Origin: Campylobacteraceae bacterium
GTDB taxonomy: Bacteria > Campylobacterota > Campylobacteria > Campylobacterales > Sulfurovaceae
Direction of reading: 5' to 3'
Assembly (NCBI GenBank): GCA_027036015.1
Contig: JALVTH010000004.1
Location: 1 to 56,701 of the forward strand
Length of the DNA stretch: 56,701 nt
Shown: piece by piece, positions 55,136 through 56,701 of the stretch
Position numbering within the stretch: position 1 is the first letter of the stretch
How the letters are laid out: each line of letters begins with the position of its first letter
Translations under genes and position numbers: made by a program
Notes under the pieces: generated by a model
Database searches by the model: none
What the model was told of the DNA's origin: nothing
What the model saw: only the letters and a program-made list of their open reading frames with translations

Positions 55136-56245
55136 ATGAAAAGTATTTGTATAGTGGGTGGGGGATATGGTGGAATTAAGGCACTTGAAGTTTTAGCCAA
55201 AGCAAAATTAGATGCTAAAGTAACTTTAATTGATAAAAACGCTTATCATTATATGCAAACAGAAAGTTATAATTTTATAACTTCAAATATCTCACTAAAA
55301 GATATAACTCTTTCATTACCTCATTTAGTAAATGCAATTAATAAGGAAGCTTTTTTTGTTCAAGATGAAGCAATAAGTATAAAAGAAAATAGAGTTATAT
55401 GTAAAAATAATACGATAGAATTTGATTATTTAATTTTAGCAGTAGGAAGTATTACAAAACAAATTACAATTTTTAAGGATTTTTTGGAAGTTAAAGAGTT
55501 AGAAAATGCTACAAAAATAAAAGAAAAGTTTGAACAACTTTTATTGGCACACTTAAAAAAGAAAAAAGAGTTTTCTTCTATTGTAATTATAGGTGGTGGC
55601 TCAAGTGGGGTAGAGATTGCGGCTTCTATGCAAGATTTTATTAATGATTTAAAACTTGATAAAGAAATTAGCATAATCTTAATAGCAGATATATTTTTGG
55701 CTGAATTAGATCATAAATCAAGAAAGAAAGTACTTGATATTTTGCAAAATATGGGAATAAAAGTTAAATTAACTTTGGTAAAAAGAGTGCAAGATAATAG
55801 AATTTGGCTTGATAATGAGATAATTAATTTTGACTTGGCATTTGCAGCAACAGGAATTGAGGCAAATGAGTTTATAAAAAATTTGTCTTTTTCAAAAGAA
55901 AATGGCTTTTTGCTGGTAGATGAATATTTGCAAGTTGCTCCAAATATTTTTGCTGTTGGAGATTGTGCACTGATAAAAGATGAAAAAGGAAATATTTTAC
56001 CGCCAACTGCTCAAATTGCAGAGCAAAGCGGTGTTTATGCGGCAAAAAATGTTATTAATTTACTTTTTAATAAACCTATGCAAAAAGCTCGTATTAAAGT
56101 TTATGGACTTGTAATTGCACTTGGCAATAAATTTGCTGTCGCAAAAGCAAAAAATTTTTATTTTGAAGGCTTCTTGGCTTCGCTTGGTAAAAAAGCTATT
56201 GAACATTACTACAAAATTCCTCTTAAAATGAAAATAAATCAGTAA
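55136..56245 (+). CDS. FAD/NAD(P)-binding oxidoreductase, NDH-2/FSP1-like
   Basis: A 369-residue two-dinucleotide-binding flavoprotein. ICIVGGGYGGIKALEVL binds FAD, LILAVGSITK closes that domain, IVIIGGGSSGVEIAASMQD binds NAD(P)H, and FAVGDCALIKDEKG with PPTAQIAEQSGVYAAKNV completes FAD binding. No redox-active CxxC and no paired Cys of sulfide:quinone reductase are seen, so a type II NADH:quinone oxidoreductase or related enzyme is more likely. The ATG at 55136 has AAGGGG upstream and is preferred over the GTG at 55127. Confidence 0.82.
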   Translation: MKSICIVGGGYGGIKALEVLAKAKLDAKVTLIDKNAYHYMQTESYNFITSNISLKDITLSLPHLVNAINKEAFFVQDEAISIKENRVICKNNTIEFDYLILAVGSITKQITIFKDFLEVKELENATKIKEKFEQLLLAHLKKKKEFSSIVIIGGGSSGVEIAASMQDFINDLKLDKEISIILIADIFLAELDHKSRKKVLDILQNMGIKVKLTLVKRVQDNRIWLDNEIINFDLAFAATGIEANEFIKNLSFSKENGFLLVDEYLQVAPNIFAVGDCALIKDEKGNILPPTAQIAEQSGVYAAKNVINLLFNKPMQKARIKVYGLVIALGNKFAVAKAKNFYFEGFLASLGKKAIEHYYKIPLKMKINQ

Positions 56246-56321: not shown

Positions 56322-56410
56322 GTAGGCAAGGAAGGACCGCCACCCCCTCATACAAGTTGCTAACGCAACCTCCGTTGGCACAGCGGATTATTTCCAACTG
56401 TCTTGCCTAC
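56322..56410. other. 89-nt structured element, possible RNA or transposon end
   Basis: GTAGGCAAG (56322-56330) pairs with CTTGCCTAC (56402-56410). Between them lie hairpins GTTGC-TAAC-GCAAC (56356-56369) and CCGTTG-GCA-CAGCGG (56372-56386). It is strikingly GC-rich against its AT-rich surroundings, has no reading frame, and does not match tRNA, SRP or 6S RNA. The strand of transcription is unknown. Confidence 0.55.
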
Positions 56411-56540
56411 TTTTAAAGTATACATTTATTAAGTTAAAAATTAGTTTTGAAATTCTTTTTATTACTTCATTTTTTAAGCTTTTTTGATTTTTTTCTTAAA
56501 AAAGAAAAAGATTCAATCCGTTAAAGTCAGGCAGTCTTTG

Positions 56541-56701
56541 AAGTTAAAAGTTAAAAGTTAAAAGTGAAAAGTTTAGGATTTTTTTAATTAAGTTAAAAAT
56601 GAAAAGTTAAAAATTAAAAGTTTAGGATTTTTTTAAAATATACATTCTCACAATAAGCACTCAACCAATCACTTTTAACTATTCACTATTAACTTTTAAC
56701 T
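56541..56701. repeat. AT-rich short tandem and direct repeats
   Basis: AGTTAAA is repeated in tandem from about 56541, the 17-mer GTTTAGGATTTTTTTAA occurs at 56571 and again at 56620 (49 nt apart), and the end of the window repeats the heptad in inverted form (TTTAACT). The spacing and degeneracy do not fit a CRISPR array. Outside the structured element, 56246-56701 shows no gene. Confidence 0.6.

Follow-up and report, generated by a model that had tools for sequence, protein, structure and literature searches.

A cloverleaf-shaped RNA element in a Campylobacteraceae contig as a candidate orphan of a proposed class of tRNA-mimicking antitoxins linked to phage PBECR3-type toxins

Type III toxin-antitoxin systems, whose toxins belong to the ToxN/CptN/TenpN family, classically have a ToxIN-like layout in which repeats of the antitoxin RNA lie upstream of the toxin gene in one operon. 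Type I antitoxins such as RatA and SR4 are convergent RNAs that overlap the 3' end of the toxin gene and pair with the mRNAs of small membrane peptides. Here we describe an element at positions 56322–56410 of a 56,701-nucleotide (nt) contig of a Campylobacteraceae bacterium (JALVTH010000004.1, assembly GCA_027036015.1), analyzed at its full length and hereafter called the window. We put at about 0.7 the probability that this element is an orphan of a new class of structured RNAs that partner phage PBECR3-type ribonuclease (RNase) toxins and act as antitoxins mimicking transfer RNA (tRNA). In the available parts of their descriptions, ToxIN, CptIN and AvcID likewise consist of a protein toxin, often an RNase, and a structured noncoding RNA that neutralizes it, as the RNA described here would. 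By analogy, the pair would work most like a type III system, but it misses two classical features, the toxin family and the upstream repeats in one operon. The toxin domain is unrelated (PBECR3-like) and usually fused to a virion protein, and the RNA is usually present in a single copy on the opposite strand 3' of the toxin gene, has its own promoter-like box and is cloverleaf- or tRNA-like. The convergent overlap at the 3' end is shared with RatA and SR4, which act by base pairing with the mRNAs of small membrane peptides. With tRNA and pseudo-tRNA genes, the RNAs share the cloverleaf order and a TTCRANN-type T-arm that abuts the closing stem or lies a few nt from it.

BECR-type toxins, among them colicins D and E5, cleave tRNAs in the anticodon loop, and RelE/HigB-like toxins share the BECR fold. 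The proteins encoded beside relatives of the window element are of the same kind as the MuF polymorphic toxins (PMC5576092) and PBECR domains (PMC5512222) described previously, that is, MuF with a BECR-type RNase tail. The available portions of these two papers attribute immunity to small proteins and do not mention an RNA partner. No RNA or tRNA-like partner of MuF/PBECR toxins was found in the literature searched, which included few subscription papers and no separate coverage of preprints. A wider proposal, which we regard as evenly balanced, is that phages carry tRNA-mimicking immunity RNAs against RNases that are packed in capsids and injected, that the bacterial orphans are RNA vaccines, and that this would be the first RNA immunity of a polymorphic-toxin system in the literature searched.

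The window element is closed by a stem of 9 base pairs (bp; GTAGGCAAG/CTTGCCTAC) and contains two internal hairpins, with exactly the bounds given in an original prediction made from the sequence alone. Its folding energy was −28.0 kcal/mol on the plus strand (3 of 200 shuffles equally good) and −35.6 kcal/mol on the minus strand (0 of 200), so that the fold beats shuffles on both strands. The surroundings are as free of genes as the prediction had described them: the nearest long open reading frame (ORF) to the left, for an oxidoreductase, ends at 56245, and no gene is evident at the element itself. Its remark that the element fits no known RNA family agrees with an Rfam covariance search, in which the element had no match at the gathering score and the sub-threshold matches were at chance level and outside the element. 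Three identities had been suggested. A new small RNA is favored by the covarying conserved structure, the −10-like box and the lack of an Rfam family, and its transcription is predicted from these features. A repeated palindromic unit, which like repetitive extragenic palindromic elements would occur in many copies, is not supported, since a single copy was found in the genome (1.69 Mb, 79 contigs). Nothing favored a transposon end with a guide-type RNA, although no search for TnpB or a transposase was made; it is a phage toxin gene to which the relatives are linked. Because the window is a whole contig (C4), which ends 291 nt to the right of the element, the sequence beyond is unreadable. The heptad repeats predicted alongside were seen by eye as AT-rich, AAAAGTT-like repeats from 56543 to 56700, up to the contig end, and no link between them and the RNA was found.

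The structure was assessed on an alignment of 12 copies to a nested covariance model, for which nine of these copies had been used. Two sequence types were distinguished, type A, to which the window belongs, and type B, represented by the first of two units at locus L006 and by the phage locus L043. On the minus strand the helices are in the order P1, P2, P3, P4 and P1, P4 abuts P1, and the loop of P2 pairs with the loop of P4 (Table 1). Over the 12 copies, 92.7% of the cells were paired and 22 of 30 pairs had changes on both sides, with a covariation score of 0.589 compared with 0.230 after shuffling (0 of 500 as high) and with at most 0.206 in slid controls; the fitting of the alignment to nested helices favors those helices in these values. 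The loop-loop helix lies outside the model, and all 50 of its lettered cells were paired, with two of the five pairs doubly changed and three invariant. Both type B rows have gaps in the loop-loop columns, and alternative loop-loop pairs could be written by eye for these rows as well as for L159 and L160, which are outside the 12-copy alignment. The first half of P3 was poorly supported (69.7% paired), and the P3 register of the window differs from the alignment columns counted as P3. The conserved fold, that is, P2, P4 and the pairing of their loops, also differs from the plain folding of the window. Scores of the window against the covariance models were 91–93 bits, the window itself being among the sequences from which the models were built.

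Table 1. Positions of the predicted RNA gene, its helices and its promoter-like box in the window.
Feature	Position	Strand	Evidence
RNA gene (5' end near 56410), 89 nt including both strands of the closing stem	56322..56410	−	Homologues, covariance model, covariation
P1 closing stem, 5' strand, acceptor-like	56402..56410	−	8/9 P1 pairs doubly changed in 12 copies
P1 closing stem, 3' strand	56322..56330	−	12-copy covariation alignment
P2, 5' strand GUUGG, D-arm-like position	56394..56398	−	2/5 pairs doubly changed; 91.7% of cells paired
P2, 3' strand CCAAC	56374..56378	−	12-copy covariation alignment
Loop-loop segment CCGC in P2 loop	56383..56386	−	100% of lettered cells paired
Loop-loop segment GCGG in P4 loop	56337..56340	−	12-copy covariation alignment
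P3, 5' strand, anticodon-arm-like position, variable	56365..56371	−	7-bp hairpin in minus-strand fold
P3, 3' strand	56354..56360	−	Minus-strand fold
P4, 5' strand GAGGG, T-arm-like, abuts P1	56345..56349	−	98.3% of cells paired; 4/5 pairs doubly changed
P4, 3' strand CCUUC	56331..56335	−	12-copy covariation alignment
−10-like box TATACT	56417..56422	−	6 nt upstream of P1; position as in relatives' TATAAT-like boxes

In the relatives, a TATAAT-like box is located beyond the element, antisense to the toxin gene. Thus, transcription of the RNA is most likely from the minus strand, from 56410 to 56322, convergent with where a toxin gene would lie. With a criterion of at least five of six matches, A at position 2, T at position 6 and a distance of 2–18 nt upstream of the closing stem, the box was present in 37 of 39 hand-listed RNAs, L085 and L149 being below the criterion, whereas the rate at random positions of these loci was 12.3%. 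At the window end, a strict promoter scan for two hexamers returned nothing above chance at the right place and did not list the TATACT box. The numbers of G-U and A-C pairs in P1, P2, P4 and the loop-loop helix (6 versus 2) weakly favor the minus strand. An RNA read from the plus strand, in the 3' untranslated region of the toxin gene, was rejected on account of the −10-like boxes and T-loops on the minus strand.

BLAST against 199 relative genomes identified two clear homologues, L003 and L004, and a weak match, L006 (E 0.037); these three are real so far as checked, and the weaker matches that were fetched, including L005, were searched with the models only. A conserved-core pattern search added L032 and confirmed L006. 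At all four loci the element directly follows a PBECR3-type gene or, in the second L006 unit, its remnant. The PF18812 scores of the genes at L003 and L004 were 31.2 and 28.1 bits, respectively, with a cut-off of 30. Searches with the toxin protein identified six loci in genome contigs and two in viral contigs, and the element was at the 3' end of the gene in each of them. The RNAs of the relatives are convergent with the toxin gene and end at or near its stop codon; at L041 the element overlaps the last codons. The toxin domains of the relatives are mostly fused to the phage head protein MuF. A tblastn search of phages and plasmids with the type A toxin domain returned no match. The R1 model matched L050–L052 (E 2e-4 to 0.006) within what by eye resembles the ORF of a chemotaxis receptor, and the pattern matches L033–L036 and L053 had no convincing full element; both groups were taken as chance.

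The arrangement of these units varied. At L006, two tandem toxin/RNA units at 1470–2340 adjoin a gene that by eye is pyrB-like, one with a complete standalone PBECR3 gene and a type B RNA and the other with an internally deleted PBECR3 gene and an intact type A RNA. At L038 (JALVVX010000025.1, 2740–3893), a toxin and RNA unit is located inside a 1.15-kb interval between two repeats of an array of clustered regularly interspaced short palindromic repeats, whose other repeats are about 66 bp apart. By eye, the interval also holds a phage fragment resembling the end of a portal gene. A spacer of unusual size, a rearrangement or an assembly error may account for it.

A search of 397 Campylobacterota genomes with the domain profile identified 20 places in 19 genomes (E ≤ 1e-5), and all 20 PBECR3-like places had an antisense cloverleaf or tRNA-like RNA at the domain end, partly judged by eye. 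Four of them are of type A or B. The other 16 are more distant and have, by the detector or by eye, a tRNA-like gene with a closing stem, a T-arm and TTCRANN or TGCAANT in a loop of 7–8 nt, and the −10-like box was present in all 13 of these RNAs that were measured. Several RNAs were missed by a first, stricter detector and a relaxed one was used instead. At a score of at least 28, the relaxed detector was positive at 26 of 28 toxin 3' ends compared with 5.2% of 1,160 shuffles, while it missed L041, L042 and L114 (the RNA of L114 was taken by eye) and was positive on 7 of 29 sense strands. Overlaps between the RNA and the toxin frame were mostly below 10 nt, except for 21 nt in L006, 37 nt in L078 and 60 nt in L074. 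The toxin frame enters the antisense RNA in L064, L073 and L074 as well as in the phage records L078 and L080; GVEPTT is one of the resulting peptides. The RNA class extends at least to Campylobacterota, Gammaproteobacteria and, in one case, Alphaproteobacteria.

The distant partner RNAs, found in Campylobacter, Helicobacter, Pasteurella and E. coli, clearly resemble tRNAs. Even so, the tRNA-like RNAs differ from canonical tRNAs. Their closing stems are commonly 8–9 bp, and ARAGORN called L064 alone among the relatives tested. Rfam returned sub-threshold pieces, tRNA-Sec in L073 and tRNA-Sec or transfer-messenger RNA pieces among L073, L066 and L134. Loops and CCA ends were counted in 18 tRNA-like RNAs that passed the detector with a T-loop motif, with the closing stem and T-arm fixed and L064 and L073 excluded. 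None of the 18 had CCA within 5 nt of the closing stem. A hairpin loop of 7 nt between the closing stem and the T-arm was found in three, of which at most one (L066) is in the anticodon position.

Additional tRNA-like genes were observed at several viral and phage loci. Two copies of the RNA occur within one viral contig at L139 (1980–2153) and likewise at L137. At L134, and in the same segment at L135, a different tRNA-like RNA with the T-arm GTGGGTTCGAGTCCCAC replaces the usual one beside a closely related toxin, and RNA types may be exchangeable there. At L065, the RNA downstream of the toxin is itself followed by another tRNA-like RNA, whose T-arm is TGGGTGCAACTCCCA. In phage B3 (L079, 1987–2085), B3ORF34, annotated as a small hypothetical protein, lies opposite the RNA gene and is unlikely to be a gene; a similar small coding sequence is annotated in CAM-P21 (L076, 2001–2093).

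The linkage between the RNA and the toxin domain was also assessed with MuF loci drawn by PF04233 only. Matches were found in 43 of 200 genomes, at 53 places, from which 30 higher-scoring loci were fetched; the tails were classified with a hidden Markov model from 16 other loci, and an RNA was called with a score of at least 28 and a T-loop motif. A tRNA-like antisense RNA was found at 11 of 12 MuF loci with a PBECR3-like tail versus 1 of 18 without one (Fisher p = 2.5e-6, which overstates independence because the genomes are related and several of these MuF places recur in the 20-place set). The twelfth tailed locus, L085, has an RNA by eye, with a longer linker. In L094, the exception among the 18, a clear tRNA-like RNA accompanies a tail that matches weakly (E 0.0018). 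L096, also among the 18, holds only the front of a gene interrupted by a stop, whose tail was reached separately as L063, with an RNA.

A histidine in an LSHLxR-like motif was kept in all 20 aligned PBECR3-like domains that lie beside an RNA. The histidine and the RNA both occur in Pseudomonas phage B3, Pasteurella phage AFS-2018a (RNA by eye), an Escherichia coli plasmid prophage and a Rhizobium plasmid element. The histidine is missing in phage Mu, Pseudomonas phage JBD67 and a Yersinia plasmid prophage, no RNA was detected in these three, and their next gene abuts or overlaps the MuF stop codon. The tail of JBD67 is 45% identical to that of B3, and the domain of Mu is characterized as inactive in the accessible part of its description (PMC5512222). 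The rule had already been noticed when the E. coli, Rhizobium and Yersinia cases were retrieved, and all conformed to it. The Pasteurella tail as query identified 34 viral loci, all 34 with the histidine and the RNA; some of the segments are identical, and the loci count as few events because they are close relatives. Among 18 Pasteurella-type RNAs, seven of nine closing-stem pairs were doubly changed and the whole structure scored 0.272 compared with 0.073 (0 of 500 as high), the D-like and T-arms being nearly invariant and thus uninformative on covariation.

Antidotes are often retained after toxin loss. A scan of 298 relatives with the R2 model returned 14 matches in 13 genomes; the one in genome G168 lies inside a chemotaxis-like gene and was taken as chance, leaving 13 RNA copies in 12 genomes. 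On the toxin side of these copies PBECR3 was present in seven, decayed in three, absent in two (the window and G575) and unreadable at a contig end in one, so that the RNA was intact with a decayed or absent toxin in 5 of 12 readable copies. In the reading of the toxin side, no PBECR3 toxin gene lies beside the window copy. Across its own genome MuF was not found with PF04233, nor was PBECR3 with PF18812 beyond one weak match (E 0.002), which is within an ORF that by eye resembles a SpoU-type methylase and was rejected. Phage L043 carries another RNA, upstream of which only the final codons of a toxin remain. This pattern fits retention of an antidote after loss of its toxin.

The RNA was also found in E. 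coli. Toxin tail and RNA together had matches in 226 of 5,426 complete genomes, of which 216 covered at least 80% of the query, and the RNA stretch alone had matches in 168 genomes. In both records opened, an NCBI annotation of tRNA-OTHER lies on the opposite strand at the MuF stop, at 1508–1587 in L162, where MuF stops at 1506, and overlapping the last base in L163; the same label is present in many, but not all, E. coli records among the matches listed. This label is an independent sign of tRNA likeness without a recognized isotype. The E. coli RNA folds as a cloverleaf whose loop at the anticodon position has 4 nt. In E. coli JNEC-KY179 (NZ_AP045176.1, 744506–744705; L164, 1496–1695), two tandem tRNA-like genes are annotated as tRNA-Tyr and tRNA-OTHER, of which one is about 85% identical to the E. 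coli RNA and neither is called by ARAGORN. They adjoin a gene for a Mor-type regulator, and MuF is absent within the 1.5 kb shown; an orphan RNA array at a Mu-like prophage is possible.

Twelve proteins of the relatives scanned in Pfam matched PBECR3, MuF_C or Phage_Mu_F, and none of the 12 matched a ToxN-type family. The L038 domain was modeled with a predicted local distance difference test of 76.8 and a predicted template modeling score of 0.70. In a second structure comparison, the six best rows were two RelE, two HigBA, a contact-inhibition system and a Salmonella toxin-antitoxin complex, and an RNase fold of the domain is weakly supported by this model.

Several observations weigh against the antitoxin reading. 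Foldseek returned nothing significant with the L038 model, and the six best rows of the second comparison had weak Z values of 3.0 to 4.1, the matched chains being putative toxins. The Pfam scores of PBECR3 were near the cut-off in four proteins, and 7 of 10 proteins scanned had no PBECR-type match at E 0.1; these seven are tied to the family via a purpose-built profile and the histidine motif only. MuF toxins are reportedly followed mostly by small ORFs, which the accessible text reads as immunity proteins (PMC5576092). The window RNA was called a tRNA neither by ARAGORN nor by Rfam, and its tRNA likeness would rest on the arm order, the abutting P4 and the loop-loop pairing. No model joins it by sequence to the tRNA-like forms: R2 had no match beside the 16 distant places (L059–L074) or to the RNAs of L079, L149, L150, L114, L066 and L077, so that common descent of the two RNA forms is conjectural. 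L064 and L073 keep anticodon loops of tRNA size (L073 by eye) and may be real tRNAs. Any single orphan may be a passively surviving relic, and a benefit of the orphan RNA to its host is conjectural. Structure, location, promoter-like box, the link to histidine-bearing toxins and survival after toxin loss are features of the compared sequences; from them, the RNA would be transcribed, bind the toxin and inhibit it.

Other explanations would account for part of these observations. The RNA could be a cofactor or cargo of the toxin that serves stability, packaging or activation and travels in the virion with MuF, and a linkage to histidine-bearing toxins is what any obligate RNA partner would have; a cofactor should decay with its protein, however, and given the intact RNAs beside decayed or absent toxins we regard this as unlikely, although as the most probable of the alternatives. 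Rather improbable is a type I-like control in which the toxin mRNA is silenced by base pairing or convergent transcription. It would agree with a −10-like box of the RNA's own and with its mostly overlapping the 3' end of the toxin gene, but the coding-frame overlap is small apart from the three loci given above, the conserved features are tertiary pairings and T-loops rather than complementarity to the mRNA, and the orphans have no target in cis.

A sacrificial decoy, cleaved by the toxin in place of tRNA so that the activity is soaked up, is suggested by the tRNA-like T-arms and D-like loops and is slightly less probable still. The loop in the anticodon position rarely has 7 nt, which makes cleavage within an anticodon loop unlikely, and the conserved loop-loop pairing of type A suggests a specific complex. 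Very improbable is an element acting as DNA, such as a recombination site, an attC-like cassette site or a fossil tRNA fragment. Units of toxin and element do stand alone in chromosomes and in tandem, as at L006, but the closing stems vary in sequence yet keep their pairing, the −10-like boxes are conserved, and the link to the histidine would not be predicted.

As a tRNA-mimicking antitoxin, the RNA would bind the RNase and hold it inactive in the lysogen and during phage assembly. The target of the toxin would be tRNA, and an RNA with a tRNA body but without an anticodon loop could occupy the tRNA-binding face uncut. Its own promoter would keep the RNA present while the toxin, a late structural gene, stays silent. 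The toxin would enter a new cell with the phage DNA and would then be free of RNA unless that cell has its own copy. In the genome of the window, the toxin and the phage would be gone and the RNA would remain, perhaps protecting against incoming phages with such a toxin.

If this reading is true, the survival of phages and lysogens in the presence of their own MuF-linked RNases would be explained for cases without an evident protein inhibitor, and a tRNA-like RNA would join the list of antitoxins. The target of PBECR3 toxins would become testable because the shape of the RNA suggests tRNA. Moreover, the pair would be testable in a standard host because the E. coli form is present in those 216 genomes, and many of the records listed already annotate it as a nameless tRNA.
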